DNA of 43,828 bases from Phycisphaerae bacterium (GTDB lineage: Bacteria; Planctomycetota; Phycisphaerae; UBA1845; Fen-1342). The stretch covers positions 1-43,828 of the forward strand of contig JANQNU010000017.1 in the NCBI GenBank assembly GCA_028279405.1, in the 5' to 3' direction. How positions within the stretch are numbered: position 1 is the first letter of the stretch; every line of letters begins with the position of its first letter. The notes under the pieces are model-generated. The model saw only the letters and a program-made list of their open reading frames with translations, ran no database searches and was not told where the DNA came from. Positions 16,682-38,293 of this stretch are shown piece after piece. The translations under genes and the position numbers were made by a program.

Positions 16682-19516
16682 CTAGCGACCGCCGCGTCCG
16701 GTCTGTTTGGCGGCGGCTTCATAGCGGTCGCGGTCGGACTCCAGTTGCTTCCGTAGTGCCGTCATCTCGGCATCCGGTTCTTCAATCTCCGTCAGCAGCG
16801 TGGGGCCTTCTCGGGCCCACGCGATGGACCGCCGCCATGCATCTTCACGGGGCGTGCCTGATGTGTTTGCGGCGCGGTCCGCAAACTCCGTCGCGAGATG
16901 GCCGCAGGTCCGCGCGAGGTCAAGTTGGATGACGCGCGCGTCCGGCGCGATCAACGCGTCCCGGCGACGTTCGATTCCCTGCCGTAGTTGTTGCGCGGCG
17001 CGGTCCAGGTTGCCGTCGGCGCGATCCAGCTCGGCCAGACGCTGGCAGTTACGGGCCACGAGCCACGGCAGCGCGAGCTCCGTCACTCCACGGTCACGAA
17101 GGGCTTCAACCTCCGCGGTGCTTGTTTCGTAACTACTCCGGGCCTGGTCAGGCTGGCCGCTCTTGCGTTGCGCCTCCCCCAACATGAACCGACTGAGCGC
17201 GACGGGTATGCCGTAGCTAATGTTGTCCGGATCGATGGCGGCCAGGTCGGCATACACGGCGATGACCTCTTCGAAGCTCGCGGCCGCGGCGGCCAACTTC
17301 TCTGTCTCGAGCTGCAACCGTGCGATCCGGTACAGGCCGACCGCCACATCGCCGCGGGCGCTGATGTTCTCCGGATCGGTGTCCGCAAGCTGTTTGCGGA
17401 TTGCCTGACTACGAACGTATTGTTCCAACGCCTCGTCGGTGCGGTCCAGCTCCTGCAGCGCCTGGCCGATTCGACCATGATTGAAGCCCACATCGCGCTG
17501 CGCTTGCGCATTGTTCGGGTACTTCTTCGCGAGCGCCGCACGAATCCTGAGGCTTTCTCGGAAATTGGCGAGCGCATCGTCATGGTTGCCCATCAGCACC
17601 TGAATATCGGCGACCTTGTTGTAGCCGACGGTCAGCTCGCGCCGCCTCCGGTCGTTGTCCGGTTCGGCTTCGGAGAGCGACCTTCGTAGCCGGAGGCTCT
17701 CGGCATATGCTTTTTCGGCTTCGTCCAGTCGTCCCGTCGCCTTGTAGACATTGCCGAGTTGGTTATGGGCGAACGTCATGAACTGCTGATTGCCGCTATG
17801 GTCGGGCTGTTCGGCCAGCTTTGCGGCTGCGAAATCGTAGAACGTTTTGTACTGTGTCAGGGCCGCGTCCACGCGCCCCCGCGCGAGTTCGACCGCGCCA
17901 ATATAGGAGTGTGTGAGCGCCAGCAATCGTTGCTGCCTCTCGTCCTCCGGGGCCGTCGCACATATGCGCTGCCGAATGGCGAGGCTCTTCCGGTGGCTCG
18001 CCAACGCGCCCACCAGATCGCCGAGGTTTGCCTGATGCGGAGCACCCTGTACCTGCGCGATCTTGTTGTACGCGTCCGCCATCTCGCGCTGTAGCGCGGG
18101 GTCGTCGGGGTCCTCGCGAGCCAGGTCATCCAGGTACTTCAGCGCCGTCGATACCATGAACTCGCGCGTGGCGGTCGCCCCCGGCAGATTCTCAATCCGA
18201 TCGTGAAGGTCGAAGATAAAGGTATGCGCAAGTTGTCGGACCTGCTCGAATCGTCGAGATGCGCGTTCTGCTTCGAGTTTCGCGTTCTCCGCTTGCTCCC
18301 GCGCTTCGACCGCGTACTTGATCGAGAATACCAGCCCGATCAACAGCGACGCGAACGCCAGCATCAGACCAGCGACCAGGCCTCGATGACGCCGCGCGAA
18401 CTTGCGCAGATGATAGGCGGTGCTTTGGGGGCGCGCGATAATCGGCTCATGCGCCAGGTATCGGCGAATGTCGGCGCCGAGTTCCGCGGCGGATGAATAG
18501 CGCCGATCCTTCTCTTTTTCCAGCGCCTTTGCAACGATCGTCTCGACATCTCCGCGCAAGCGTGGATTGATCGAGCTCAACCGTGCGGCGTCCTCCTCGC
18601 GGATGATCCGGGCGGCCTCCGTTATCGGCGATCGTCGGAAATCGTGCGGCGGTTGATCGGCGAGCAGCTCGTAGGCCAATGCGCCCAGGCCGTACACGTC
18701 GGAGCGCGTGTCGAGCCCGGCCGCGTCGCCGGCCACCTGTTCGGGGCTCATATATGTCAGCGTGCCGATGATCTGCCCGACATCGGTGTGCATGGTGGTA
18801 AGCTGGACATCCAGGTCGGTCGCGCGGGCCACTCCGAAATCGATGACCTTGACCCGCCCGTTCCCGTCGACGAGCACGTTCGCCGGTTTCAGGTCGCGGT
18901 GGATGATGCCCTTCTGATGACCGTGATCGACAGCGTCGCACACATCCAGGAGCAGTTGCAGGCGGGCGCGCGTCGTGAGTTGGTGCGCGGCGGCATACTG
19001 AGTAATCGGCTGCGCGTCGCGGACATACTCCATCGCGAAGAAGGGCGTCCCGCCTGCGGCGCCGTGCACGTCAGCCTCGAAGATCTGCGCGATGCCGGGG
19101 TGTCGCAGCTCGCCCAGGATCTGGGCTTCGATCTCGAAGCGTCGCAGGCTCGAATCCGTGGCCAGCCCGCGCGACATCACTTTCAGCGCGACGGTACGGC
19201 GTGGCTCTTCTTGCGTCGCTTCATAAACGGTTCCCATTCCACCGGACGCGATTACCCGCTGGATCGTGTAGCGCCCGAGTCGTTGTCCGACCAGTGCGTC
19301 GCTGGTGCGAAGCAGCGTGGCGGCGACGCCGGACGATTCGGTCCGGTCGAGAATGCCGAGGTCCCGGTCGCTTGCGACCAGCAGCGACTCGACCTCTTCG
19401 CACAACGCCGCGTCGGTGGCGCGGAGGTCGTCGAGGTAGCGGATGCGCGCTTCGCGGTCGAGTTTTCGGGCTCGAATGAAGTGGTCGCCCACTTGCTCGT
19501 GCCGCGCCGTGCTCAT
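16682..19516 (-). CDS. Transmembrane Ser/Thr protein kinase with TPR domain
   Basis: The 944-residue protein has a Hanks-type kinase domain at about 83-355: glycine loop IASGGMGTVYEA, K112, catalytic HRDLKPAN (206-213), DFG (226-228) and SPE (257-259), all intact. A single membrane span follows at about 380-399. The remaining 540 residues are mostly TPR-like helices. By topology the TPR part would be outside the cytoplasm, as in receptor-type planctomycete kinases, but this is inference. GGAGAG lies upstream of the ATG at 19516; the longer frame would overlap the sigma factor gene. The gap to that gene is 53 bases, so the two are almost certainly co-transcribed and may form one signalling unit. 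Confidence 0.93.
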   Translation of the reverse strand: MSTARHEQVGDHFIRARKLDREARIRYLDDLRATDAALCEEVESLLVASDRDLGILDRTESSGVAATLLRTSDALVGQRLGRYTIQRVIASGGMGTVYEATQEEPRRTVALKVMSRGLATDSSLRRFEIEAQILGELRHPGIAQIFEADVHGAAGGTPFFAMEYVRDAQPITQYAAAHQLTTRARLQLLLDVCDAVDHGHQKGIIHRDLKPANVLVDGNGRVKVIDFGVARATDLDVQLTTMHTDVGQIIGTLTYMSPEQVAGDAAGLDTRSDVYGLGALAYELLADQPPHDFRRSPITEAARIIREEDAARLSSINPRLRGDVETIVAKALEKEKDRRYSSAAELGADIRRYLAHEPIIARPQSTAYHLRKFARRHRGLVAGLMLAFASLLIGLVFSIKYAVEAREQAENAKLEAERASRRFEQVRQLAHTFIFDLHDRIENLPGATATREFMVSTALKYLDDLAREDPDDPALQREMADAYNKIAQVQGAPHQANLGDLVGALASHRKSLAIRQRICATAPEDERQQRLLALTHSYIGAVELARGRVDAALTQYKTFYDFAAAKLAEQPDHSGNQQFMTFAHNQLGNVYKATGRLDEAEKAYAESLRLRRSLSEAEPDNDRRRRELTVGYNKVADIQVLMGNHDDALANFRESLRIRAALAKKYPNNAQAQRDVGFNHGRIGQALQELDRTDEALEQYVRSQAIRKQLADTDPENISARGDVAVGLYRIARLQLETEKLAAAAASFEEVIAVYADLAAIDPDNISYGIPVALSRFMLGEAQRKSGQPDQARSSYETSTAEVEALRDRGVTELALPWLVARNCQRLAELDRADGNLDRAAQQLRQGIERRRDALIAPDARVIQLDLARTCGHLATEFADRAANTSGTPREDAWRRSIAWAREGPTLLTEIEEPDAEMTALRKQLESDRDRYEAAAKQTGRGGR

Positions 19517-19569
19517 CGTTCTCTCCGTTGCCCGAGTTGGTCGCTGACACCCAGGCGGGTCTTGATGGG

Positions 19570-20148
19570 TCAGCGGGACGTGTCGCGCAGACACTCGCGC
19601 TTCAGCCAGGCCTTGCCGATCGCCCACTCGTCGCTGACCGTGCTGCGGGCCAGATCGAGGATTTCGCCGACCTCTTCAATCGTCAAACCACCGAAAACGC
19701 GGAGTTCTACCACGCGGGCCTGACGCGGGCTGACTTCGGCGAGGCGGCAGAGCGATTCCTCGAAGTCGATGATCTCCAACGTGTCGGATTGTGCGACTTC
19801 GAGCGCCCGATCCAGGGTGATTCGCTGCCAGTCCTGGCCGCCGCGCTTCTGGGCGTTTCGGCGGCGGGCGTGATCGATCAGAACTTGCCGCATGGCGCGG
19901 GCCGCGATCGCCAGAAAGTGCGCCCGTCCGCTCCAGGGCTCGTTTCGTTGCGCAATGAGCCGGAGGTAGGCTTCGTGAACGACCGCGGTGGGCTCTAACG
20001 TGTGGTGCGTGCGCTCGTCCTTGAAATAGTGACCGGCCAGCGCCCGCAGCTCGTCGTAGACGACGGGTAACAACTGGGCCGCCGCCGATTCGTCGCCAGC
20101 CTGCAATCGCTCGAGAATCGTCGTCGCATCGGGGCCGCTCGTGCTCAA
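19570..20148 (-). CDS. ECF sigma factor (TIGR02999 / planctomycete ECF type)
   Basis: The 192-residue protein has sigma region 2 (about 28-95, with EAYLRLI and AHFLAIAARAMRQVLIDHAR) and region 4 (about 130-185, LSPRQARVVELR-like, then GLTIEEVGEILDLARSTV as the helix-turn-helix). The DHARRRNAQKRGG stretch is typical of the TIGR02999 family. The start appears to be TTG at 20148, with AGAGGA 4 bases upstream; no in-frame ATG fits better. No anti-sigma factor gene is adjacent. Instead the next gene is a Ser/Thr kinase, matching ECF groups thought to be controlled by phosphorylation. Confidence 0.9.
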   Translation of the reverse strand: MSTSGPDATTILERLQAGDESAAAQLLPVVYDELRALAGHYFKDERTHHTLEPTAVVHEAYLRLIAQRNEPWSGRAHFLAIAARAMRQVLIDHARRRNAQKRGGQDWQRITLDRALEVAQSDTLEIIDFEESLCRLAEVSPRQARVVELRVFGGLTIEEVGEILDLARSTVSDEWAIGKAWLKRECLRDTSR

Positions 20149-20384
20149 TCGTTCCTCTCATACCCCGGATCGCTCGTCGTCGGATTCGCGCACCGTGCGC
20201 AGTTTTGGCGGTCTCCGGCGATCGTCCAGAACCGTGACAGAATACCGCATTTTGGGGGTGGACGGCAGTTTTTTCGCGCTCCGTCCGGGCGCTACATCGG
20301 CGATCCACGCCCTTCTGATCGGTAAGACGAGCCGCAATGCGGCGGCTGGTCCCAAACACGTCTGCCTAGCACGGAGAATCGGAA

Positions 20385-22676
20385 ATGGCTCGGAAATCAT
20401 GGCTACGATCGCTCACAATCGGAATCGCGCTCAACGCATCCGTCGCGCTGGCGGCGACCCCGCTGACGACGGGCATCACCTATCAAGGCCGACTGGCCGC
20501 TGCCGGCGAGGCCATCAACGGTACGGCGGACTTCGAGTTCACCCTTTGGGACAGCGACGTCGACGGTCTCATGATCGGCAACGTGCTGGTCGCGAACGAC
20601 GTCCCCGTCACCGACGGCGCCTTCACCGTCGAACTGGATTTCGGACCTTCGGCGTTCAACGGCGACGCGCGCTGGCTGGAGATCGACGTCCGCAGCCCGG
20701 CCGGCGGTGGGGCGTTCTCGACGCTGACGCCGCGACAGCCGGTGACGGCTTCGCCGTACGCCTTGAACGCACAGCGGGCCGCACGCGCCGACCGACTCGA
20801 CGGCGTGTTCGTTAGCCCGCAGGGGCGGGTCGGCATCGGAACGGAGTCGCCGTCGCAGCGGCTGAGCGTGGTCCGGGACGTCGGCGTACTGGGCGTGGGA
20901 GACCTGCCGGGCGCGTTGACCGTATTTGGGCCAAACGGCAACGAAAACGTACTGTTGACCGGCAACCCGCTCTTCGATGATGTCGGCGAACTCAAGCTGT
21001 TCAACAGTGCCGGCGAAGATCGGGTCATGGCGGTCGTCCGACCGGGAGTGTTCGGAGGCGGTGGCGCGGTAATGGTCAAGAACAGCGACGGTGATATCAC
21101 CGGCAGGATCGAAGGCGGCCTAGACTCTTTCATTACAGGCGGCAGTTTCGGCATCGGTACGACTACGCCGAGCCACAAGCTCGATGTCGTCGGCAACATC
21201 GCCGCCCGCAGCACCGGCGCCAACAGCAGCGGCCAGCTGTTCACGTACGGCCCCAACGGCAACCAGAACTTCCGCGTAACGTTCTTGAACGGCAACCCGG
21301 ACCACGGATTTCTCAGTCTCAAGAATGCCGATGGCGAGGATCGCGTTACGGCGGTGGTGGGCCCGGATGGTTCGGGCACGGTGAGCACGCGGGGAGTCAA
21401 TGGAAGCTCCAATGTGGTAATGCAGTTCCTGTCCGGCTTTCCCGATCACGGATTCCTGTCGATACGTGATGCAAACAGCGATTCGCGGGTGACTGCTTTC
21501 GTCAACGCGAGCGCGGCTGGCCAGCTCAATCTGCGAAGCTTCGACGGCGCGGTCAATGTCGTGGCGCGGGGCGCCGCCTCGGACGACAGCGCTGCCCAAC
21601 TGCTGCAAGTCCGCGGACCCTCCACACAGCACGTTGCGACGTTTCGGAACGAGAACCCGGACGGCAAGGGCATCGCGATTCGGATCGACAATCCGGACAC
21701 CAATACCACGAACAACTTTGTCACGTTTGTCGATGGAATGGGCCGAACGACCGGTCGCATCGAGGGCTGGGACGCGCAGGTCGACGATTGGATCACCGAT
21801 CCGCCGCCACTGCCGGAACTCGAGCTCGATATCAACTTCCCGACGCTGAGTTTCACGACCACCGTGATCGACATCCCGCTCGGGCCGACATTCACGATCA
21901 TCAACCCGACGTCGCTCGCGCTAAGTCTCCCGAGCAACCCCTTCAACCTGCCCTCCGACAACGACATCACCGGCGAGAGCGGGGCGTTGCGCGCGTATCT
22001 TACCTGGAGCATGGCGAACGGGCTGGGCAACGTCGTCTCGCTCGACCCAATGTCGATCGCAACGAACAGCGCCAAGCTGGCGCTGACCAAGGTCGCGAAC
22101 GATCGCGGCGTCATCTACGGCACCAAGGGCGCTGACTACGCCGAGTGGCTGCCGAAGGAAGATCCGAACCAACAGTTCAAGTTCGGCCAGATCGTCGGGA
22201 TCCGTGGCGGCCGGGTCAGCCTCGACACCGAGGGCGCAGAGCAGATCATGATCGTCTCGCAATCGCCGGCGGTAGTCGGCAACCAGCCCGCAGAGGGCGA
22301 GGAAGATGCGTACGTTGCCGTCGGCTTCATGGGCCAGCTCATGGCCGCCGTTCGTGGCGCGGTCCACGCCGGCGATTATATTGTCCCCTCCGGTCTGAAC
22401 GATGGCATTGCGATCGCGATCGCGCCCGAAGATCTCACGACGGAACACCTCGACCGCATTGTCGGCCGCGCCTGGACCGACTCGACCAATCCGGTCTTTG
22501 ACTTCGTCAACGTCGTCGTCGGCGTCGACCACCAGGCAGCGAAGCACGTGCTCGCACGGGTCGAGCTGGAAAACGGTCGGCTGGCACGCGAGCTGAGCGA
22601 GATTCGTGGACTCCTGAACACAGTGCTCGAAACGCGCGTTGACGACGCCGGACCGGTCGCCGTGACCAGCAACTAG
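20385..22676 (+). CDS. Secreted tail-spike-like protein with FTYQGRL-type N-domain (paralogue 1)
   Basis: The 763-residue protein has a signal peptide (about 1-23, ending VALA). The N-terminal domain (about 28-130) has the pattern ITYQGRL...DFEFTLWD...GAFTVELDFG...RWLEI.VRSP....TLTPRQPVTASPYA. A long beta-structured region has GIGT-x2-P-x2-[KR]L motifs, as in phage tail spikes and trimeric adhesins. Near residue 583 comes GADYAEWLPKED...GQIVGI, resembling the self-cleaving Peptidase_G2 intramolecular chaperone domain of phage appendages. This assignment is by eye and tentative. The end is a short helical stretch. GGAG lies 8 bases before the ATG. The sigma factor and kinase genes are divergent from it. 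Confidence 0.78.
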   Translation: MARKSWLRSLTIGIALNASVALAATPLTTGITYQGRLAAAGEAINGTADFEFTLWDSDVDGLMIGNVLVANDVPVTDGAFTVELDFGPSAFNGDARWLEIDVRSPAGGGAFSTLTPRQPVTASPYALNAQRAARADRLDGVFVSPQGRVGIGTESPSQRLSVVRDVGVLGVGDLPGALTVFGPNGNENVLLTGNPLFDDVGELKLFNSAGEDRVMAVVRPGVFGGGGAVMVKNSDGDITGRIEGGLDSFITGGSFGIGTTTPSHKLDVVGNIAARSTGANSSGQLFTYGPNGNQNFRVTFLNGNPDHGFLSLKNADGEDRVTAVVGPDGSGTVSTRGVNGSSNVVMQFLSGFPDHGFLSIRDANSDSRVTAFVNASAAGQLNLRSFDGAVNVVARGAASDDSAAQLLQVRGPSTQHVATFRNENPDGKGIAIRIDNPDTNTTNNFVTFVDGMGRTTGRIEGWDAQVDDWITDPPPLPELELDINFPTLSFTTTVIDIPLGPTFTIINPTSLALSLPSNPFNLPSDNDITGESGALRAYLTWSMANGLGNVVSLDPMSIATNSAKLALTKVANDRGVIYGTKGADYAEWLPKEDPNQQFKFGQIVGIRGGRVSLDTEGAEQIMIVSQSPAVVGNQPAEGEEDAYVAVGFMGQLMAAVRGAVHAGDYIVPSGLNDGIAIAIAPEDLTTEHLDRIVGRAWTDSTNPVFDFVNVVVGVDHQAAKHVLARVELENGRLARELSEIRGLLNTVLETRVDDAGPVAVTSN

Positions 22677-22734
22677 GCGAGTAAGGGCACGTGGGCGCCG
22701 TACCGGTGTCCTCTCCGGAGCCGGCGGCGCCAGT

Positions 22735-22861
22735 GCGAGCCCGGAGCGCAAGCGACGGGTCAGTCCCCCACCCCAAGATGGGGTGGGGCACCATGCGATA
22801 CAGGGTGGGGCGGGCGTCTCGCCCGCCATTGTCCGCTCGCGCGCGCTCGCGGCTCGTTGTG
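22735..22861. repeat. Intergenic repeat, copy 4 (near full length)
   Basis: The 127-base element begins GCGAGCCCGGAGCGC and carries three palindromic cores. These are CCCCACCCC-AAGAT-GGGGTGGGG, GGGCGGGCG-TCTCGCCCGCC, and an alternating CTCGCGCG block ending GGCTCGTTGTG. It matches 28216-28365 with few changes. It occupies much of the gap between the first and second tail-spike-like genes. Confidence 0.8.
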
Positions 22862-22942
22862 GGCGATTTGCGAGCCCCGCGTCTCCGTGCGTCGCTTTCC
22901 TCGTCGCTACTTTTTTCGAATTCCGTCGGGCGCGGCCGGGCG

Positions 22943-23025
22943 GTCTTACGCCTTACTGACTGTAGGGATCGATGGACCCTCGATTGTGGGCCCATTCGAC
23001 GTCCAATAACGAATCAGTCAGAGGG
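22943..23025 (+). ncRNA. Conserved 5' leader A, candidate structured UTR
   Basis: A 7-bp helix CTGACTG (22956-22962) / CAGTCAG (23015-23021) encloses 52 bases and ends at the GAGGG ribosome site of the next gene. An inner pairing ATGG (22972-22975) / CCAT (22992-22995) is possible. Leader B (26622-26704) has the same helix, the same 52-base enclosed length and the shared block TTCGACGTCCAATAACGA. The shared GTCYTACGCC box lies 13 bases before the helix in both and may be the -10 of an ECF-type promoter, which would put the start at the helix. Confidence 0.45.
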
Positions 23026-23032
23026 TTTCGCC

Positions 23033-24754
23033 ATGAGTAGCCGATACGGGGTGACGCTTCGTCCGAGGAACTTGACCGTCTACGTCGCGGCACTGGTTCT
23101 CGCGAGTACAGTCCACGGGCAGACGTCGTTTACCTATCAGGGCCAGCTGCGATCGGCTGGTCAAGTGGTCAACGGTGCGACCGACATCGAGTTCGCGCTT
23201 TGGGACAGCGAAACGGGTGGCAGCAGAATCGGCTCAGCGCTGATTGCCGACGACGTCGCGGTCACGAACGGCGTCTTCACCGTCGAAGTTGACTTCGGCG
23301 TCATGGCTTTCAACGGCGACCCCCGCTGGCTCGAGATCAGCGTCCGCAGTCCGGCGGGCGCCGGCGCGTTCGAAACGCTAAGCCCGCGACAGCTCGTCAC
23401 TGCAGCGCCGTACGCTGCCCAGGCCGGAGGGATCCGCGGCATCTTCGTCAACGGTTCGGAGCAGGTCGGAATCGGGACGATCACGCCGCAGCAACGGCTT
23501 ACGGTTCAGGGTAACGTCGGTGTGCGTGCACCATCGGGCGGTGTCGGCGAGATGATCGGTTTTGGGCCTTCCGGAACACAGAACTTCCGGGTGTTGGCGA
23601 ACGGCGCCGGCGTACTCGAGCTTTCGAACAATCTGGAACAGCGTCGGGTCACCGCCACAGCGATCCCGGGAGCCGGAGGCGTTCTGACGCTCTGGGACAA
23701 CGAGACGTTTCTCGGGATCCAACTGGATGGCGGCGTCGGGAAGCCGAGCTTTTTCAACAGCGGCAACTTCGGGATCGGAACGACATCGCCGACGAGCAAC
23801 CTGCATATCAGTGACGTCGGCCCCGTTGTGCTGACCATCGAAGCGGACACCGACAATACAAACGAGAGTGACAATGCGCGCATCGTTCTGAGACAAGACG
23901 ACGGTCTGGTCGCGGGGCGAATCGGCTATCGCACAGGCCAGAACAAACTCGAGATCGTCAACGAGTACAACGACATGCTCGTTCTGGGGACCAGCGACAA
24001 CGACGCTTTGAGCATTACCGCGTCGGGTCGTGTGGGCATCGGAACCGACACGCCCGCACAGCCGCTGGAAGTGATCGGTAATATCGCCGCCCGGAGCACC
24101 GGTGCAAACGACGCCGGCCGCCTGATCACATACGGCCCAAACGGCAGCGAGAACTTCCGCGCAACGAGCGTCAGTGGCAATCCGAACTACGGCCACGTTT
24201 CCGTGCGGGATGATTCCGGCATTGAGCGGGCGCGAATGTACGTGGATGACGATTCGAACAGTGAACCCTGTGGCACTATTTCGACGGACGTGCTGCTCAT
24301 CAACGGCGGCGCCGACATCGCCGAACCGTTTGACGTCAAATCGGGGCCCGGCGGTGACGAACGGCCAGCGACGGCTGTACAACCCGGCATGGTGGTCGCG
24401 ATCGATCCGGCGAATCCGGGCGCGTTGCGGCTCTGCACCGATGCCTACGATCGCACGGTCGCCGGCGTCATCAGCGGTGCCGGCGGCGTTCGGCCGGGGA
24501 TGATGTTGCGCCAGGAAAACACGATCGCTGACGGAACCCAGCCAGTCGCGCTCACCGGTCGCGTCTACTGCTACGTCGACGCCGACGCCGGCGGTCCCGT
24601 CCGGCCGGGGGACCTGTTGACGACGTCTGATACACCAGGGCACGCCATGAGAGTTTCCGACTACGGCCGCGCGACGGGGGCCACGATCGGCAAGGCAATG
24701 AGTGGAATCGAGAAGGGGCGCGGACTGGTCCTGGTCCTCGTCAACCTGCACTAG
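23033..24754 (+). CDS. Secreted tail-spike-like protein (paralogue 2)
   Basis: The 573-residue protein has a signal peptide ending near VHGQ. Its N-domain is the same as in the two neighbouring paralogues (TSFTYQGQL ... RWLEISVRSPAG ... LSPRQLVTAAPYAAQA). Middle repeats carry GIGT-x2-P motifs. Its region around GNIAARSTGAN and TYGPNG is nearly the same as in paralogue 1, showing module exchange. The C-terminal 150 residues begin GADIAEPFDV and continue G-V-VAID, then GDLLTTSDTPGHAM and IGKAM, a domain common at the end of secreted bacterial fibre proteins. ATG 23033 is preferred because GAGGG lies 7 bases upstream and the signal peptide follows. The metallophosphoesterase gene follows 44 bases later. 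Confidence 0.8.
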   Translation: MSSRYGVTLRPRNLTVYVAALVLASTVHGQTSFTYQGQLRSAGQVVNGATDIEFALWDSETGGSRIGSALIADDVAVTNGVFTVEVDFGVMAFNGDPRWLEISVRSPAGAGAFETLSPRQLVTAAPYAAQAGGIRGIFVNGSEQVGIGTITPQQRLTVQGNVGVRAPSGGVGEMIGFGPSGTQNFRVLANGAGVLELSNNLEQRRVTATAIPGAGGVLTLWDNETFLGIQLDGGVGKPSFFNSGNFGIGTTSPTSNLHISDVGPVVLTIEADTDNTNESDNARIVLRQDDGLVAGRIGYRTGQNKLEIVNEYNDMLVLGTSDNDALSITASGRVGIGTDTPAQPLEVIGNIAARSTGANDAGRLITYGPNGSENFRATSVSGNPNYGHVSVRDDSGIERARMYVDDDSNSEPCGTISTDVLLINGGADIAEPFDVKSGPGGDERPATAVQPGMVVAIDPANPGALRLCTDAYDRTVAGVISGAGGVRPGMMLRQENTIADGTQPVALTGRVYCYVDADAGGPVRPGDLLTTSDTPGHAMRVSDYGRATGATIGKAMSGIEKGRGLVLVLVNLH

Positions 24755-24798
24755 GGCAGCGTCCTTCTGGCCAGCCCCTTACTCGAGAGGATCATTTG

Positions 24799-26484
24799 AT
24801 GATGAAGACGACTTCTCATCCCGCGCCGGTTGGCGGTGCCTTTCTCCGCGGACTCGCGGCGGCGGTCTTCGCAAGCCTCGCAACCGGGCAGGTGTTCGGT
24901 TTCGCGATCTACAACAACACGCGCTACGCAGTTCGGGTCTGGGTACCGCAGGGCGAATATGAATCGGAGATTCCGCCAGGCGAGCACCGCGCCTGCAACT
25001 TCGCGAACACCGACTGCAATCCGTCCGGCTCTCGGACGTCGCAGCTGCTGTTGATCGTCGAGACGGTCGACAGCACGATCGACTACGAAGGCAAGGTGAT
25101 ACTCCAAGGCGGCGGCTATGCGACGATCGACGAGGTCTGGCGCGGCGGCATCGGCCTCGCGACCCGCCCGGACATCAAGATCGACTCCTGGACGTTCGAC
25201 CACCAGTCCCTGGATACGACGCGGACCGGACACGGCGACGGGAGTCTCGGGATGACTGTAGCCCGCGATGTGCGTTTCTTCGCGACCGCCGACTGCCAGT
25301 ACAGTGGCGGCGTCGATGGTACCGAATCTGACTTCAACGGCGGCGCCAATGGTGTCGCGAACGACGTCTACGCGCGGATGACCACGTTGATGGCGATCGA
25401 ACCCAAGATCCGCGGGATGTTGTACGCCGGCGACCTGACGCAGCGCAGCCGACGGGATGAATGGACTCACTACACGGCAAGGACTGCTGAGGCGTCTCGT
25501 TTCCTGTTCGACGGTCTCGGAAACCACGATCGGGCCTTCCCGACCGTTGGCCAGGTGTTCCAGTGTCTCGTCGACCCGACCCGCTGTCGTATTCCGGAAA
25601 CGCTCCGGGCCGATGTCCGCGATCGTGGACGTCAAACCGTAAAGACCAACAAAGGCGATCCGCACTACTCGTGGGACTGGCAGGACGTGCACTTCGTGCA
25701 GCTCCACGTCTTTCCAGCCGACGAACCCGCTTCGGACCTGAGGCCGAGCGGCGACCCGAACATCTATCCCGAACACGATCCGATGGAGAGCCTCGCGTTC
25801 CTGCAGCAGGACCTCGCGACCCGCGTCGGCAACACCGGCCGGCCCGTGGTCCTGGTTCACCATTACGGCTTCGACGATTTTTCGACCGGCCGGAACCTGG
25901 GCTGTGACGTGTTTGACCCGACACAGCCTCACAACATCTGGTGGACCGATGCGCAACGGGTCCGGTACTGGAACGCGCTCGCGCCGTATAACGTCGTCGC
26001 AATCATTACCGGCCACTTCCATACCCCCAGCGACTTGAGCGACTCCAACACGCGATGCCGATGGCACATCCCCTGGATTCGTCCCCCCGGCGGGGTCGGA
26101 GGTCCGCCGGAGATTCAGACGTTCATCGCGGGAGCGGCGCGCAATAACCTTTTCATCGACGTTCGGATCAATGCCTCGAACGAGGTCAGTGTGACCCAGC
26201 GAGACAGTGACGGCGTCGTTAACGAGGAGGTCTGTTACACGTTCAGCAACCGCTACTACGTCGAGGACATCGCCGCTACGCCCGGTTGGGGATCGGTCGG
26301 CTTGCCGTTTGCGACGATGGCGCAGGCGGTGAATAGCGTGTCGCGGCGCGATCCGAACTGCAGCACGGCTGCGTATCCGGAGATTCGCGTGGCTCCTGGA
26401 AGCTATCCCGAGTCGTTGACGATCGACCGGAAGACGAGGATTACCAACCCTGGCTCGGGCACGGCCCGCATCGGCCGACCGTAG
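24799..26484 (+). CDS. Secreted calcineurin-like metallophosphoesterase
   Basis: The 561-residue exported protein (signal region about 1-36) has the dimetal phosphoesterase motifs in order: D165-C-Q167, GDLTQ (D212), GNHD (N242, H243, D244), HH (354-355) and GHFH (H406, H408). The first motif is D-x-Q rather than D-x-H. A Cys-containing N-terminal domain of about 120 residues precedes the catalytic part. After it comes a piece like the start of a parallel beta-helix (GSVGLPFATMAQAV ... IRVAPGSYPESLTI). GAGAGG lies 8 bases before ATG 24799; a second ATG follows at once. The substrate is unknown and could be a nucleotide, phospholipid head group or phosphoprotein. It lies between two tail-spike-like paralogues and ends in a strong terminator. 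Confidence 0.85.
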   Translation: MMKTTSHPAPVGGAFLRGLAAAVFASLATGQVFGFAIYNNTRYAVRVWVPQGEYESEIPPGEHRACNFANTDCNPSGSRTSQLLLIVETVDSTIDYEGKVILQGGGYATIDEVWRGGIGLATRPDIKIDSWTFDHQSLDTTRTGHGDGSLGMTVARDVRFFATADCQYSGGVDGTESDFNGGANGVANDVYARMTTLMAIEPKIRGMLYAGDLTQRSRRDEWTHYTARTAEASRFLFDGLGNHDRAFPTVGQVFQCLVDPTRCRIPETLRADVRDRGRQTVKTNKGDPHYSWDWQDVHFVQLHVFPADEPASDLRPSGDPNIYPEHDPMESLAFLQQDLATRVGNTGRPVVLVHHYGFDDFSTGRNLGCDVFDPTQPHNIWWTDAQRVRYWNALAPYNVVAIITGHFHTPSDLSDSNTRCRWHIPWIRPPGGVGGPPEIQTFIAGAARNNLFIDVRINASNEVSVTQRDSDGVVNEEVCYTFSNRYYVEDIAATPGWGSVGLPFATMAQAVNSVSRRDPNCSTAAYPEIRVAPGSYPESLTIDRKTRITNPGSGTARIGRP

Positions 26485-26512
26485 CCGCTCCACGCGACAA
26501 TATTTGTCGGGA

Positions 26513-26549
26513 ATGGGTGGGCACCTGCTGGTGTCCGCCCATTTTTCTT
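26513..26549 (+). terminator. Intrinsic terminator after the metallophosphoesterase gene
   Basis: ATGGGTGGGCACC (26513-26525) and GGTGTCCGCCCAT (26530-26542) form a 13-bp stem with two G-U pairs and a 4-base loop, followed by TTTTCTT. It separates this gene from the next paralogue, which has its own leader. Confidence 0.88.
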
Positions 26550-26621
26550 CGGAGGTGAGAAAAGACGGTTCGTTCTCGCGGCCGCATCTTTTTCGTGGCT
26601 TTCATCGGGCGCAGCCGAACT

Positions 26622-26704
26622 GTCCTACGCCTTTCTGACTGTCAGGGTTAATGGGCCATTGATCGTGGTCCCGTTCGACGTCCAATAACGATTCAGTCAG
26701 AGGG
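26622..26704 (+). ncRNA. Conserved 5' leader B, candidate structured UTR
   Basis: CTGACTG (26635-26641) and CAGTCAG (26694-26700) enclose 52 bases, as in leader A. The inner pair ATGGG (26651-26655) / CCCGT (26670-26674) corresponds to the leader A inner helix and is retained through a wobble-compatible change. GTCCTACGCC (26622-26631) is the counterpart of GTCTTACGCC at 22943. The two leaders lie upstream of homologous genes, so recent duplication is an alternative explanation for the likeness. Confidence 0.45.
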
Positions 26705-26711
26705 TTTCATC

Positions 26712-28211
26712 ATGAGTAGTCAACACGGGGCGACGTATCGTCCGCGGACAATTGCCGTCTGTATCGCGGCGCTGGTTCTCGCGAGTACGGCCCAGGCGCA
26801 GACATCGTTCACCTATCAGGGGCAGCTTCGTTCCGCGGATGAGGCCGTCGAGGGCCTGGTGGACTTCGAGTTCGCTCTTTGGAACGACGCGGTCGGCGGC
26901 GCCCTGGTCGGGTCGGTGTTGCACGCGAATGATGTCGCGGTTGCGAACGGCGTCTTCACCGTCGAGCTGGACTTCGGCGCGCTCGCATTCAACGGCGCTG
27001 CCCGCTGGTTGGAAATCAGCGTTCGCAGCCCGGCGGGCGTCGGCGTGTTCGAAACGCTGAGCCCGCGACAGCTCGTCACGGGCGCACCCTACGCCGCCCA
27101 GGCCGGCGGTGTCCGTGGACTGTTCGTGGACGGGGCGGAGAACGTCGGTATCGGTACGGCCAGTCCGGACACGCGGCTGCATCTGGTCGGCGCGGACAAC
27201 AACGGGACGACCGCCGGGCTCAAGATCACGAACACGGCCAACGCGGACACCATGCTATTGGACGGTAACGAGATTGACTGCGTGTCGGGCGCGCTCTACC
27301 TCAACAACAACGGCGACGGCGACATTATCGTCGCACAGGGTGGTGGCCGTGTCGGCATCGGCGTCGATCAGCCGAACAACCGACTTTCTGTCGCCGGTGG
27401 CGCCGATTTCACCGAGAACGTCGGCATCGGCACGACCGACCCGTCCGCGCGGTTGCATGTCCTTGGGCCGGACAACAACGGCACGTCCGCCGGGCTCAAG
27501 ATCACGAACACGACCAGCGCCGACGTGATGCTGATGGACGGCAACGAAATCGATTGCACGTCCGGACCGCTCTACCTCAATCACAACAGCGACAACGACG
27601 TCTATCTGGCCAGCGGCGGCGGTAACGTCGGCATCGGCACGACCAATCCGGAGAGCGAATTGCACGTCGTATCCGCCGGCGGACGCGCCGTAACGATCGA
27701 GACCCCCGGCAGCTTGTGGGCCGGCGTCACGTCCCTGAACCAATATGTGGACTACTTCTCGGGTGTGTATACGGATACCTGGGTGTTGTTGGACAATCTC
27801 ACCGGCGAGTTCCGACTCGTCGTTCGGGAAGACAGCATCCTGATCTCGGCCGGACGTGATGCCTACGTCCGATTTAGCGACGCCGGGATCGAGCTTCCCC
27901 GCGGGAGCGGCGTCGTCTTTCCCGACGGGAGCACGATGGACCGCAATCCCGTCATCGATTCACGGACAGTGACGATTGACTTCGGCTCAATCGCCGCCGG
28001 TGGGCGCGCGTCGGGTGGGGGCCTTAGTCCGGGGGCGCTGCCCGGCGACGTCGTGGTCCTGACACCGACCGAAGATGTACCGTTCCCCTTCATGATCTTC
28101 GGGGCCTATTGCCCGACGCAGAATCAACACCGCTTCCTGCTCCAAAACATGGGTAACGCGGCCGTTGATCCGCCCCCGATCAGCGTGAAGGTGACGATCA
28201 TTCGACCCTAG
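26712..28211 (+). CDS. Secreted tail-spike-like protein with internal duplication (paralogue 3)
   Basis: The 499-residue protein's signal peptide and N-domain closely match paralogue 2 (MSSQHGATYRPRTIAV..., TSFTYQGQLRSADEAVEG). The middle has two tandem copies of a 92-residue unit starting NVGIGTASPDTRLHL and NVGIGTTDPSARLHV. Each contains DNNGT.AGLKITNT and DGNEIDC.SG.LYLN. A third GIGTTNP start follows. Unlike the other two, it lacks the GAD-x-AE C-terminal domain and ends in a different beta-rich domain (about 410-499). GAGGG lies 7 bases before the ATG. No terminator is seen; an intergenic repeat follows at once. Confidence 0.8.
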   Translation: MSSQHGATYRPRTIAVCIAALVLASTAQAQTSFTYQGQLRSADEAVEGLVDFEFALWNDAVGGALVGSVLHANDVAVANGVFTVELDFGALAFNGAARWLEISVRSPAGVGVFETLSPRQLVTGAPYAAQAGGVRGLFVDGAENVGIGTASPDTRLHLVGADNNGTTAGLKITNTANADTMLLDGNEIDCVSGALYLNNNGDGDIIVAQGGGRVGIGVDQPNNRLSVAGGADFTENVGIGTTDPSARLHVLGPDNNGTSAGLKITNTTSADVMLMDGNEIDCTSGPLYLNHNSDNDVYLASGGGNVGIGTTNPESELHVVSAGGRAVTIETPGSLWAGVTSLNQYVDYFSGVYTDTWVLLDNLTGEFRLVVREDSILISAGRDAYVRFSDAGIELPRGSGVVFPDGSTMDRNPVIDSRTVTIDFGSIAAGGRASGGGLSPGALPGDVVVLTPTEDVPFPFMIFGAYCPTQNQHRFLLQNMGNAAVDPPPISVKVTIIRP

Positions 28212-28215
28212 CCAA

Positions 28216-28392
28216 GCGAGCCCGGAGCGCGAGCGACGGGTCAGTCCCCCACCCCAAGATGGGGTGGGGCACCATGCGATACGGGGTGGGGCGCCATGCG
28301 ATACAGGGTGGGGCGGGCGTCTCGCCCGCCATTGACCGCTCGCTCGCGCTCGCGGCTCGTTGTGTTTGGCATCTGGTTCGTGCTGGGGCCCG
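28216..28392. repeat. Intergenic repeat, copy 5 (with internal tandem duplication)
   Basis: This is the best counterpart of copy 4. It carries the CCCCACCCC/GGGGTGGGG hairpin and the GGGCGGGCG-TCTCGCCCGCC hairpin. Within it a 22-base unit, CCATGCGATACGGGGTGGGG plus two bases, is present twice in tandem (about 28272-28314), whereas copy 4 has it once. It starts 4 bases after the paralogue 3 stop codon. Confidence 0.8.
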
Positions 28393-32803: not shown

Positions 32804-32986
32804 CCGGGCGGGAAGTGCGCGATTCGTGGGATCGCGACTGGCGCGAATTGATGAAGCGCCTATGATTGCGTTGGCGAGAGGTGCCACTGGCGCCATTGTC
32901 AGGTGAAGCCGACCGATCGGACACGCAAACAGTCTTTCCAGCAAGCGTTGAGGACTTGCCAAGCCCCAATTTGGAGGAATCGGCGA

Positions 32987-35900
32987 ATGACTCCGGGAAG
33001 TCGTCGTATCGTCGTCGGGTGGTTGCCGCTTTTCACGCTACTTGCGATCGTGCCGGGTGCATGGCTCGCGAGTGCGAATGCTGAAGAGCGCAAGCTCGTC
33101 GTCCTGCTCGCGAACATTCCGAAGGAGCGGCGCGACAATTCGCCGTTACCGAACCCGGCCGAGATCTGGGATCAGTACTTCGACAAATTCAAGAACGGCC
33201 AGAACGGCGGGCCGCGGGTCGACTCGCACGCCGAGTGGTGGGAGGAGATCTCCTACGGCGACGTCACCGTCAGTGGCGACGTCTTCGGCTGGGTCAACCT
33301 GCCGTGGCCGACCATTCCGTTGACGGGTGATCAGGGCCCGGCGGATCCCGGCGACCCCAATCCGCCAGCGGTCCCCACGGGCCGCGTACCGCACATCGAG
33401 CTGCGCGGCGGTAGCGACTACGAGCCGGGCATGGGCGAGTTCTTCCAGAGCTTCCGTTCGCGATTCCGGTTCGACCTCGACGGCGTGGGCGGCAACGCGG
33501 TCGGTCGCTTCGGCAACTTCTCGGTGGGCAACGGTCTTTTCAACTCCATCTTCGAGATTGATAACCGGTTCGGCGGTTCGGCCGCTACCGATGAATCGGG
33601 CGAGCAATTGTGGATGCCCGGTGAGCGCTTCCGGGATCTGAACGGGAATGGCATCTACGATGCCGGCGTATACGAGTGGGGGATCGACAAGAATGGCAAC
33701 GGGCGGATAGACGTGCAGCGGCAGGCCTCCAGTTGGGCGCAGCTGCTCGCGGTGAATATCCAGTTCCCGCCGGAAGAGGATCCGCCGGAGGGTGCCGTTC
33801 CGGAGTTCGTCAACTGGGCAAACGACACCGAGTGGTTCGACAGCAACGGTGACGGCCAGTGGGCCGCTTACGGCGCCGTCTTCGACGCGCGCTACGCGCC
33901 GATTCTCAATCCGCCGGAGCCCGGTGGTGAGCAGGAGCCGTTTTTCGAGCCGCTGATGGAGCCGCGCACGGTCATCGAGTCGTTCATGACGTCGGCCGGT
34001 CCGATCCCGGTCACGTTCTTCCGCGGCGACTGGGGTGGAACTGAGATTTGGATCGACCGCGACGGTAACTTCGATCTGGATGCGCGCGCCACGCAGGATG
34101 ACCGCGTCCGTGGCGAGGGGAACGCGGACACGAGTCGGCCGGCAAACTTCTGGGAGTTCCTGATTCAGTTGAACGACCCGGAGACGGAAGACGTCGAGTA
34201 CTACGACGAGCAGTGGAACGATACGCACGACTTCCCGGAGCCGTTCGAGGACTTCATGCGGCGTTGGGGCGGCTCGGATGGGACGCACAACTGGGTCGAG
34301 ATTGATCAGGCGTACGTCGACGCCAACTACCCTGGCGACGAAGCGACGATGGAGTGGCTTCGGAGTCGCACGGGGAATGGTCGTTACGATCCGCCGGACA
34401 ACTGGTCCAATTTCGGGTCGAATGGGCAGAACAGTACGAACAAGTATCAGGAAGTCGCGGCGGGCAACCTCGTCGATGGCGAAGAAGATGCCGAGTTGCA
34501 GCGTCGCCGACAGTTCCTGACGCCGGTACCGGAGACGTACCAGGGCGAGCAGGGCGGCTGGTCGCTGGACGAGTTCTGGCAGACACAATACGGATCGGAG
34601 CCGCCGGCATGGGTTTCGCAGATTCCGTTCATGCGGAAGTTCGATCCGTCCGAGCCCCGGCCATTGGTTCCGGGTGATGCGGCGGGTGACCGTTTGATCG
34701 CGTTTCGGCCGAATCGCGGCGGTCCTACGCACACGGGTATCGACTATGCGGGTAACCGCTACGGCAACAGTGAGGCGCAGGTGCTTCCGGCGCCGACGAA
34801 CACGGCGTTCGGTATGTATGACGGTCCGCGCGAGTTCCACGACCTGCCGTCGTCGATCTACCACAGTGCCGGTGATGGTCACCTCGGTGAGGTTACGTCG
34901 CCGCTTTCGATTGACTATTGGGGTGACGACCTTGGCACCCATGATCCGAACGGCGGCGGCGGTACGGGCGATCAGATCATCCCCGCGGCCGGTCCGTTGG
35001 CGTTCAACGTGCATGGCGATCAGGGCTGGGACGCCGGCAACCAATTCAACATCGAGTACATGACGTGGCGTCGCGATGGTCTTTCGTCGACCGACATCGT
35101 TGTTGAGCAGGACATCGATGGCGACGGCGAGCCGGACTTCACCTTTGCCGAGTACCACCGCGACATCAACCTCGACGGTATGCTCGACGTTGGCGAGTCG
35201 CTCGGCGACCAGGGCGAGGTGGGTCGGCCGGACGTGAATTCGTATCACAACTACGGAACCGACCCGGATCCGGGTACGCCGGTGAACGGCAACCCGATGA
35301 ACATGTATCCATTCAATCGGACGCGGGCCATTGAAGACGTCGTGGCGGCGTTGGACCAGACGGTCGACTGGGAGAACTTCCTCGGCGGTCCGGGGCCGTT
35401 CGGCAATCGGGTGATGGGCTTGATTCTGCTGCCGGAGGAGACAGGACCGAACGGTATGTTCACGCTCCCCGCGTCGAGCGCAACGGGTTTTCCGATTCGG
35501 ACGCGCGACATGGTCAACGCAGGTGCGATGGGCATCGAGCGTTACGTGCCGATCCCGTTTTTTGACGGTATGGGTATCACCATCGGCGGCATGGGCGAAG
35601 GCGGTGGTCTCCCCGCGGACGAAAACTATCAGATTGGTTTCGCAGGTCACGAGTACGGCCATGTCTGGGAAGGCTGGCCGGACCTCTACGACTATGACGT
35701 GCGTGCGGAGTTCCCGGTGGACATCCAGAACAACCCGGTCGCGCGTTGGTGCGTGATGGCGGGTGGCGGTCTGGTGCACCCGGTCGGTCCGCTGAAGGCC
35801 GACTCGGGCTGGATCCGGCCGGTGGACATTACGCGAGCGTTGCTCCCGGCCGGCACCAAGACGGTCACGTTGCGACCGTGGGAATTCAATCGAAACCAGA

Positions 35901-38293
35901 CCCTGTTCATGTACGAGAACCCGCTCTTCCCGCAGGAGCGCTTCTGGATTTGGCGTACAGCGGAGGCGAGTCAGGGTGAGTTGACCTTTGACCGGTTCAT
36001 GCCGGGCAATGGCGTGATCATTCTTCACACTGACTTCGGCGACAATCCCGAAGCACTTCCGCCGCAGCAACGTTTGGGTGCCGGTCGATTCACCTACCGG
36101 GTGATTCAGGCGGACGGTGAGCAGGCGTTGGAGGCGGGTCTTAGTGCGGGTGACGCTGGAGACCCCTGGCCGGGGACGAGCGGCGCGACGAAGTTCGACC
36201 GTACGACGGATCCGCGGAGTGCGTGGTATGTCGGTAGCCAACCCTCGGGTTTGGATATCGTCGAAATGCGCGAGTTCGAGGATCGCACGGAAGTCGACAT
36301 CAAGTGGTCGCCGCGCGAGTTGCCGACGTTCGAGTGGATTCGTCCGCGTCCGTTCGGTACGCCGACCAATGATCCGGGTAGCGAGGGTGTTTCCGTCGAT
36401 GGCGTGTACAACCTTCGCTGGCTGGGCTACGACCAGTTCGGCGGCACGACGCTCGAGTTCTTTGCGAACCGCAGCATTCCGGGCGAGCCGCTCGGGTTCG
36501 AGCAGGGCATTTTCCTGTCGAGCGACAACAAGGCGCCTGGTGAGGTGGACGGTACGACGGATGTGGACATCAGTACGCTTCCGGATGGAACGTACACGTT
36601 CTACGCACGGCTGGTGCCGGGTGTCGGGCAGGACAACAACGTCGAGAGTCCGTTCTCGCGTCCGCGTGCGAATCTGAACAACTTCGGCGACGGCACGATG
36701 GAAATCATCCAGGTGGACACGTCGATCTCCCAGTTCGAGCGCTGGAACGCGGTGTGTATCAATACGCAGCCGCCGGGAGCGGAGACGTGGCGGGTGACTG
36801 CATCGGCGACCGGGGAGCAGATCGGATTGGCGACGACTGGATCGCTTTACACTTCCGATCCGGACGTGTTCGGCCGCACTCCGGTGCAGTTCACGATCAA
36901 TCCGGGCCAGACGCGGAACTACCGTGTCGGTGACGAGTTCATTTTCGTGACGACGGGGCTTACGCCGCATAGTACGGCGGTCCTGATCCAGGAAGGTGAG
37001 GTCGTGGAGCCGGAGGTTCCGATTGCGATCGCGGACCTTGAGGGTGTCGCGGTTGGTTTGGCGCCGTTGAACCTGGTCTTCAAGCATGAGAACTCGTCGG
37101 ATCCGCGTGGTGCGGCGCTGTCGTTCTCGTGGGACTTTGGCGACGGAACGCCGGCTTTCGAGACGGAGCAGCTCGATCGGCCTGTGATGCATACTTACGA
37201 GCAGGCGGGCAATTACACCGCGACGTTGACCGTACGGAACGCGTTCGGCTTGACGGCTCAGGATCAAATTCAGATCCGCGTGAACGACGCGTTGCCGCCG
37301 ACCTTGCGGTCACAGGCGGCTCCGACAGGCGGTGCATCGCCGTTGCTGGTCGACTTCAACGCGGAGTTGACCACCGACCCGAACACGGGCACGCAGGGGC
37401 TCGATTTCGTCTGGGACTTCGGTGACGGGACGCCGCCGGCGTTGACGCCGCGGGTGCAGCATCTGTACGAGGATCCTGGTGTTTATGTTGCACGGGTGAC
37501 GGTGACCAATCGTCCGTTCAACAAGTCCGCCAGTCGTGTGTTCGAGATCCGCGTGGCCGGTACGACGGCGGATGATCTTCCGCCGGAGGCGATCATCGAG
37601 GTTGATCGAACGGTCGGTATGTCGCCGTTGTCGGTGATCTTCACCGGCACGAGTTCGAGTGATCCGGAGAACGGCGCATTGTCGTTCACCTGGGACTTTG
37701 GTGACAATTCGCCGATCGTTCGCGGTGCGAATGTCGTGGAGCACGTGTACACCCGTGTTGGTGATTTCAACGCGACCTTGATCGTTGAGGACCCGAGCGG
37801 ACAGCGTGACACGGCGACGATTGCCATCTCGGTGATTGGCGACACGTCGGTGAACAACCAGTCGCCGGTGGCGAAGATCGCGGTTTCGTCGACGCAGGGT
37901 CCGGCGCCGTTCACGGTGCGGTTCGACGCGAGTGATTCGCGCGATCCGGAGGGTGGCAACCTCGCGTATGCGTGGGACTTCGGCGATGGATCCGATCAGG
38001 CGATTGGGGCGGTCGTCGAGCACACGTACACCAAGCCGCGCGATTACAACGTCGTGCTGGTGGTGTCTGACAGTGGCGGCAAGACCGGCGCGACGACGGT
38101 ACGGATTACCGTGACGTCGCCGGTGGATACGAGTCAGCCCAACCAGAATACGCCGGGCGACGATGTGGCACCGACCACGATCGCGCCGACGTGTGGTGCG
38201 GGCTGCGGCCCGGTCGGGCTGATGCCGCTGGCCCTGACGTTGATCGGAATGGGTGGTCTCCGCCGGGCTGCCCGACGGTCGCTGCTGGGGTAG
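32987..38293 (+). CDS. Giant secreted M6-type metalloprotease with PKD repeats and C-terminal sorting tag
   Basis: The 1768-residue protein has a signal peptide (about 1-34, ending ASANA). The catalytic region includes HEYGH at 888-892 followed by GWPD (D899), the immune-inhibitor-A zinc motif. The first 900 residues also contain many Asp-rich calcium-loop sequences (DLNGNGIYD, DKNGNGRID, DSNGDGQW, DIDGDGEPD, DINLDGMLD). Four PKD domains follow at about 1345-1709, each with a WDFGD core. The end reads CGAGCGPVGLMPLALTLIG then GMGGLRRAARR: a Cys/Gly motif, a hydrophobic helix and a basic end, like MYXO-CTERM or related anchors. GGAGG precedes ATG 32987 by 9 bases. The gene stands alone between its own promoter and a strong terminator. 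The substrate is probably extracellular protein. Confidence 0.88.
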   Translation: MTPGSRRIVVGWLPLFTLLAIVPGAWLASANAEERKLVVLLANIPKERRDNSPLPNPAEIWDQYFDKFKNGQNGGPRVDSHAEWWEEISYGDVTVSGDVFGWVNLPWPTIPLTGDQGPADPGDPNPPAVPTGRVPHIELRGGSDYEPGMGEFFQSFRSRFRFDLDGVGGNAVGRFGNFSVGNGLFNSIFEIDNRFGGSAATDESGEQLWMPGERFRDLNGNGIYDAGVYEWGIDKNGNGRIDVQRQASSWAQLLAVNIQFPPEEDPPEGAVPEFVNWANDTEWFDSNGDGQWAAYGAVFDARYAPILNPPEPGGEQEPFFEPLMEPRTVIESFMTSAGPIPVTFFRGDWGGTEIWIDRDGNFDLDARATQDDRVRGEGNADTSRPANFWEFLIQLNDPETEDVEYYDEQWNDTHDFPEPFEDFMRRWGGSDGTHNWVEIDQAYVDANYPGDEATMEWLRSRTGNGRYDPPDNWSNFGSNGQNSTNKYQEVAAGNLVDGEEDAELQRRRQFLTPVPETYQGEQGGWSLDEFWQTQYGSEPPAWVSQIPFMRKFDPSEPRPLVPGDAAGDRLIAFRPNRGGPTHTGIDYAGNRYGNSEAQVLPAPTNTAFGMYDGPREFHDLPSSIYHSAGDGHLGEVTSPLSIDYWGDDLGTHDPNGGGGTGDQIIPAAGPLAFNVHGDQGWDAGNQFNIEYMTWRRDGLSSTDIVVEQDIDGDGEPDFTFAEYHRDINLDGMLDVGESLGDQGEVGRPDVNSYHNYGTDPDPGTPVNGNPMNMYPFNRTRAIEDVVAALDQTVDWENFLGGPGPFGNRVMGLILLPEETGPNGMFTLPASSATGFPIRTRDMVNAGAMGIERYVPIPFFDGMGITIGGMGEGGGLPADENYQIGFAGHEYGHVWEGWPDLYDYDVRAEFPVDIQNNPVARWCVMAGGGLVHPVGPLKADSGWIRPVDITRALLPAGTKTVTLRPWEFNRNQTLFMYENPLFPQERFWIWRTAEASQGELTFDRFMPGNGVIILHTDFGDNPEALPPQQRLGAGRFTYRVIQADGEQALEAGLSAGDAGDPWPGTSGATKFDRTTDPRSAWYVGSQPSGLDIVEMREFEDRTEVDIKWSPRELPTFEWIRPRPFGTPTNDPGSEGVSVDGVYNLRWLGYDQFGGTTLEFFANRSIPGEPLGFEQGIFLSSDNKAPGEVDGTTDVDISTLPDGTYTFYARLVPGVGQDNNVESPFSRPRANLNNFGDGTMEIIQVDTSISQFERWNAVCINTQPPGAETWRVTASATGEQIGLATTGSLYTSDPDVFGRTPVQFTINPGQTRNYRVGDEFIFVTTGLTPHSTAVLIQEGEVVEPEVPIAIADLEGVAVGLAPLNLVFKHENSSDPRGAALSFSWDFGDGTPAFETEQLDRPVMHTYEQAGNYTATLTVRNAFGLTAQDQIQIRVNDALPPTLRSQAAPTGGASPLLVDFNAELTTDPNTGTQGLDFVWDFGDGTPPALTPRVQHLYEDPGVYVARVTVTNRPFNKSASRVFEIRVAGTTADDLPPEAIIEVDRTVGMSPLSVIFTGTSSSDPENGALSFTWDFGDNSPIVRGANVVEHVYTRVGDFNATLIVEDPSGQRDTATIAISVIGDTSVNNQSPVAKIAVSSTQGPAPFTVRFDASDSRDPEGGNLAYAWDFGDGSDQAIGAVVEHTYTKPRDYNVVLVVSDSGGKTGATTVRITVTSPVDTSQPNQNTPGDDVAPTTIAPTCGAGCGPVGLMPLALTLIGMGGLRRAARRSLLG

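Follow-up and report, generated by a model that had tools for sequence, protein, structure and literature searches.

Exported mosaic fibre genes divergent to ECF sigma factor/Hanks kinase pairs recur in a Phycisphaerae bacterium and its relatives

What might an ECF sigma factor and a transmembrane kinase be doing beside a cluster of genes for exported, tail-spike-like proteins? ECF sigma factors and Hanks kinases are unusually numerous in planctomycetes and their relatives and, to our knowledge, little has been described of what planctomycete pairs of this kind control. The question is raised by one contig (C64) of a Phycisphaerae bacterium whose genome of 5.63 Mb is available as a fragmented assembly of 92 contigs; the whole stretch of DNA analysed, 43,828 nucleotides, is referred to here as the window. 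A sequence-only reading had described a sigma factor and a transmembrane kinase with TPR repeats, divergent to three exported paralogues that share an N-terminal domain and to an exported metallophosphoesterase, and had proposed that the genes form a surface system expressed under a sigma factor that is itself controlled by the kinase. All these genes are present, and the starts given for the three paralogues (20385, 23033 and 26712) are correct.

The regulatory side of the locus lies on the reverse strand (start codons were assigned by rule). The gene for a Hanks-type Ser/Thr kinase (16682..19516, ATG at 19516) matches Pfam Pkinase (PF00069, 1.9e-39) and TPR models; as it runs from 19516 down to 16682, most of it falls outside the interval 19516-28211 in which the system had been placed. 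Its product comprises a cytosolic kinase domain with the motifs HRDLKPAN and DFGVA, one transmembrane helix and an extracytoplasmic TPR ectodomain of about 545 residues. Some 53 nt separate it from the gene for an ECF sigma factor of the Sig-70_X6/Sigma70_ECF family (19570..20148, reverse strand; PF07638, 5.8e-57; TIGR02999, 4.6e-62), which scores 209 bits against a TIGR02999 cut-off of 126.

On the forward strand, fibre 1 (20385..22676), fibre 2 (23033..24754) and fibre 3 (26712..28211) all begin with signal-peptide-like N-termini, followed by the shared N-domain (at about 20475-20762, 23129-23416 and 26808-27095, respectively), which is 63-74% identical among the three. The C-terminal parts differ. 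Fibre 1 carries GIGT shaft motifs, a weakly Peptidase_G2-like region and a C-terminal coiled coil; fibre 2 ends in a tip of a 10-member class with the pattern GKAM..LVLVLV; and fibre 3 has a shaft and a lectin/tailspike-like tip (27939-28208). The fibre 3 shaft contains an internal direct repeat of 186 nt (27138-27323 and 27414-27599, 78% identical). Further along the window (32903-38293), a secreted protein of 1796 residues is encoded, with PKD-like repeats, a zinc-protease-like HEYGH motif and a hydrophobic, sorting-like C-terminal tail.

The exported calcineurin-like phosphoesterase (24799..26484, forward strand, ATG at 24799; 21.8 bits with PF00149, whose cut-off is 21.5) starts 44 nt past the end of fibre 2, and both genes are probably carried on one transcript. 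No homologue of it was found in the 54 other host-genome stretches examined, nor any relative of solved structure by sequence; it is therefore accessory and, having been seen only at this locus, does not belong to the recurring module. Two copies of an intergenic repeat (22735..22861 and 28216..28364, 96-97% identical), equally accessory, lie just 3' of fibre 1 and of fibre 3 and thereby flank a 5.5 kb block that runs from fibre 2 through the phosphoesterase to fibre 3. In the host genome the core of this repeat occurs in these two copies and nowhere else, and they may be traces of duplication within the cluster or of exchange of the block.

The divergent arrangement recurs throughout the host genome. 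With the N-domain of the 26712 protein as the query, 54 copies of this domain were found; 43 sigma genes of the family score above the TIGR02999 cut-off and 45 are recovered by a custom profile, and 54 stretches around these fibre and sigma genes were fetched and examined. The kinase gene lies directly downstream of the sigma gene in 40 of the 45 cases. A fibre gene is found within 1 kb of 15 of the 45 sigma genes, and all 15 pairs are divergent, none being tandem or convergent. Random placement would give 0.2 such pairs (Poisson P between ~1e-20, when fibre clusters are counted, and 1e-22). This association is itself silent on the direction of control.

It could be argued that sigma/kinase pairs and fibre genes are neighbours through block duplication, the sigma factor controlling other genes and the fibres using ordinary promoters. 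This would agree with the 39 of 54 fibre genes that are not directly beside a sigma gene and with a weak co-divergence of the modules, as sigma distances correlate with kinase distances (Mantel r 0.45, P 0.0002) and with fibre distances (r 0.36, P 0.013); the same correlations also speak for a functional cassette. However, hitch-hiking alone does not account for 15 divergent pairs against none in other orientations, and the mean sigma distance within the set (0.54) is too large for a single recent burst of duplication.

The loci in which no fibre faces the sigma gene bear on a different proposal, namely that this sigma/kinase family is a generic surface-remodelling switch controlling assorted exported proteins, of which fibres are the commonest class. 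At 18 such loci the divergent ORF has at least 200 codons, and a crude rule picks out a signal-peptide-like N-terminus in 10 of them; at some others nothing clear lies opposite. Fibre-less sigma/kinase pairs often face a large exported protein with a dockerin-like C-terminus resembling TVGDINCFVALVTGG (L081, L117, L121, L126 and L133, among others). Since these sigma genes face other exported proteins, fibres may be the commonest but not the only targets. Nevertheless, one family dominates among the divergent genes, that of the fibres (15/45), and a generic switch, which we regard as decidedly unlikely to be the better description, is largely compatible with a cassette dedicated to fibres and differs from it in scope.

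Comparison of gene neighbourhoods in relatives had been put forward as a check on the original reading, and the divergent arrangement was found in related genera, so that the claim was not overturned. Five further genomes from the family were compared. A fibre gene is directly divergent to a sigma/kinase pair at eight of their loci, spread over four genera, and lies about 1.8 kb from the pair at two more, of which one adds a fifth genus. A search of public genomes with an alignment of nine N-domain sequences retrieved the domain from planctomycetes and also from Chloroflexota, Verrucomicrobia, Acidobacteriota and others. Linkage to a sigma gene was found at 9 of 30 testable planctomycete loci and at none of the 29 that came from Chloroflexota and other phyla (one-sided Fisher P ~0.001). 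The domain occurs in 27 of 40 genomes of the family and order and in 2 of 147 other planctomycete genomes sampled, and its 54 copies in the host compare with 18 in the next relative. At three planctomycete loci (L177, L182 and L183), a divergent kinase gene lies 1.2 kb upstream of the fibre gene, and the profile detects no sigma gene between them. In Herpetosiphon aurantiacus, which belongs to a predatory genus, the plasmid pHAU01 encodes a protein (Haur_5099, L134) with a fibre N-domain at 40% identity, beside glycosyltransferases.

If each sigma factor served its own fibres, traces of this might be expected upstream of the fibre genes. In the window, a common element is found on the forward strand ahead of fibre 1 (20286..20318), fibre 2 (22927..22959) and fibre 3 (26606..26638), with the pattern CGGGCGC-N16-ACGCCYTNCTGA, preceded by TTTTTTCG, and a spacing that fits -35/-10 elements. 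Fibres 2 and 3 (23033 and 26712) have duplicate upstream regions; the similarity of the 20385 upstream region to these two is confined to a block of 57 nt, TTTTTTCG...CGGGCGC-N16-ACGCCYTNCTGA. None of 500 shuffles matched the similarity between the 20385 and 23033 upstream regions, and the other comparison was better than 97% of shuffles. At this stringency the pattern has three matches in the 5.63 Mb of the genome, exactly those upstream of the three window fibres; it was derived from its own sites after the fact, two of them within the longer duplication, so that this uniqueness speaks for specificity and not for binding. Another block, CTGTCGTTTACNCNTTTGAAGC, likewise derived from its own sites, marks the three fibres of the C50 cluster and recurs at one duplicate fibre on C89 and at one weak site. 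A scan for generic promoters of the sigma-70 type and for terminators gave results at or below chance.

An EM motif search over the 15 divergent regions found nothing common to the clusters in the fibre direction, and a GCTATAAT-like -10 element upstream of the sigma genes only. There is hence no common promoter to point to, which counts in favour of block duplication; private promoters would also explain the absence of a motif common to the clusters. Taking into account that the upstream elements which were found are cluster-specific and restricted to the fibres of their own clusters, together with the orientation and the depth of sigma divergence, we consider mere neighbourhood by block duplication unlikely.

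How the kinase might act on its partner is suggested by region 2.2 of the sigma factors. Acidic residues of this region ordinarily keep the sigma factor bound to RNA polymerase. The host factors have Q-P-T-A (Q/E-P-T-A) where D-A-E-D is usual, the window factor reading EPTAVVHE, and the threonine is kept in 43 of 44 aligned sequences. HRDLKPxN is conserved in almost every partner kinase, alongside a single membrane helix and an ectodomain. The closest parallel is found in the phospho-activated pairs of ECF43 type, EcfP/PknT of Vibrio parahaemolyticus and EcfK/PknS of Xanthomonas citri, in which the acidic motif is replaced and a threonine at that place serves the partner kinase as phosphosite (PMC13147305, PMC8999054). 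Both these and the host pairs have an adjacent transmembrane Hanks kinase, lack DAED in region 2.2 and have a threonine at the phosphosite position, the motif being QPTA in the host, STTA in EcfP and QTTA in the ECF43 consensus. By this analogy, we infer that the host kinase phosphorylates, and so activates, its partner sigma factor. The phosphosite itself may differ, since the T51A variant of EcfK was functional and a second threonine, in the linker, mattered (PMC13147305).

The host pairs are set apart from the ECF43 type by their number, about 45 copies in one genome, and by their divergent partner, a surface fibre gene, whereas the partner genes of ECF43-type pairs concern T6SS or polymyxin resistance. 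It has to be noted that the host factors were classed by the TIGR02999 and PF07638 models only. In the planctomycete groups ECF59, ECF61, ECF62 and ECF217 the sigma gene also lies beside a Ser/Thr kinase gene and phospho-regulation has been proposed; groups other than ECF43 may nevertheless work differently, because DAED-like acidic residues are present (PMC8999054). The host factors, although also planctomycete and kinase-adjacent, lack these residues, and neither a target nor a divergent fibre partner is described for the four groups in open texts.

The fibres themselves are mosaics. The VGIGxxP shaft motif occurs in 38 of the 54, the S74 endosialidase chaperone (PF13884) in 14, an RCC1 propeller in six and a weak Peptidase_G2 match in two. 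When the last 170 residues are taken as the tip, at least eight classes are obtained besides singletons, and no two window fibres fall in the same class. N-domain identity is 68% between neighbouring fibres and 50% for unlinked pairs, yet in 20 of 25 neighbouring pairs the tips have no detectable similarity. Within cluster C55, one pair is 91% identical at the N-terminal end and has unrelated tips, and a second pair, of 61% identity, has tips that match at 2e-100. Such mismatch between N-domains and tips, seen at the level of sequence, is domain shuffling. The fibre clusters L088 (C55) and L082 (C13) combine very recent N-domain duplication with swapped tips.

Structural models give some indication of what these parts may be. 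The N-domain is confidently modelled (pLDDT ~97) as an Ig-like beta-sandwich, but its structural matches are generic only (Z ~7), with no informative relative, so that fold comparison yields no function. The model of the fibre 3 tip, built on four sequences and reaching a pLDDT of ~80 in the tip only, best matches C-terminal domains of phage tailspikes (Z 6 to 8.6; HK620 ~6.6); the GalNAc-binding Helix agglutinins, which are H-type lectins, follow at Z 5.8 and are the top Foldseek match (E 0.16). From this double resemblance, carbohydrate binding by the fibre 3 tip is a reasonable but unproven guess. The original designation of the proteins as tail-spike-like agrees with this model and with the phage tail-fibre profiles that match many members.

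These resemblances raise the possibility of domesticated or remnant tail fibres or spikes of phages, as parts of a prophage or a contractile particle. The host proteins share with S74/endosialidase-bearing phage fibres and tailspikes the shaft motif, the chaperone (14/54) and the tip fold, and one PHROG tail-fibre profile (phrog_9942) matches 28 of the 54. They differ in their signal peptides, in an N-domain not found in phages and in their chromosomal cassettes with regulators. Phage tail parts are assembled in the cytoplasm and have no signal peptides. The N-domain had no tblastn match at E 0.01 in 50,697 phage records, its structure gave marginal matches only in a viral library, and no other phage structural gene was seen in the window among the ORFs around the fibres. 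A phage remnant is therefore highly improbable.

A further counterpart is offered by the mosaic adhesive trimers (MAT) of Bdellovibrio bacteriovorus, described in a paper that does not mention planctomycetes (PMC10769870). Of these fibres, which the predator displays on its surface, 13 are S74 and 8 non-S74 members; their N-domain is invariant and their tips are swapped. Both sets are exported, have a conserved N-domain, exchanged tips, S74 and non-S74 members and a VGxG..P...L loop. The host set is larger (54 against 21 members) and is paired with dedicated sigma/kinase genes; surface display, published for the MAT of a predator, is predicted for the host fibres. The comparison was made through the NCBIfam model NF053851 (Bdello_MAT_N), whose ten matches genome-wide all fall on host fibre N-domains, eight in fibres already known and two in further fibres that the custom N-domain profile also finds. 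Every score is far under the curated cut-off of 60 bits (best 26.8; fibre 3, 16.9), and the host shaft has a weak sequence match to Bd2133. Distant homology to MAT is thus likely, and "MAT-like", rather than MAT, is the appropriate term. The sequence-only reading knew of no named system with this gene set. Its two halves do have named counterparts, ECF43-type kinase/sigma pairs and the Bdellovibrio trimers, and no description of their combination was found in the open-access papers searched.

Taken together, we think it probable that the locus is one instance of a cassette that recurs, in which the kinase phosphorylates the sigma factor and this transcribes a private, divergent fibre cluster. 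The membrane kinase would use its TPR ectodomain to sense something beyond the cytoplasmic membrane and would phosphorylate its partner on the conserved threonine of region 2.2, standing in for the acidic residues. The activated sigma factor would then transcribe its own set of divergent genes, in the window presumably through the shared upstream element. Their products would be exported fibres with the N-terminal beta-sandwich probably at the cell surface, a shaft predicted to be trimeric and, at the C-terminus, an exchangeable tip that may bind targets such as glycans. The earlier suggestion that a kinase-controlled sigma factor sets a surface system therefore stands in part: the divergent pairing seen 15 times and in related genera, the phospho-threonine signature and the exclusive upstream element speak for it, and control by the kinase and surface location are features that we infer.

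All this suggests that the bacterium turns on its surface fibres set by set, in response to different signals. A stronger version, of about 15 independently addressable fibre switches, each kinase having its own signal, each sigma factor a private promoter and each cluster a different set of interchangeable tips, is a tentative proposal that may well prove too strong. If it were true, the cell could choose its surface adhesins according to what it meets, and the kinase ectodomain could possibly sense engagement of the fibre itself. In any case, the divergent mosaic surface fibre is a concrete, repeated and testable candidate target of planctomycete sigma/kinase pairs. Moreover, MAT-like fibres, so far described in the predator Bdellovibrio, would be extended to planctomycetes, in a large repertoire, and also to Chloroflexota, Verrucomicrobia and Acidobacteriota, which raises the question of what the bacteria bearing them attach to.
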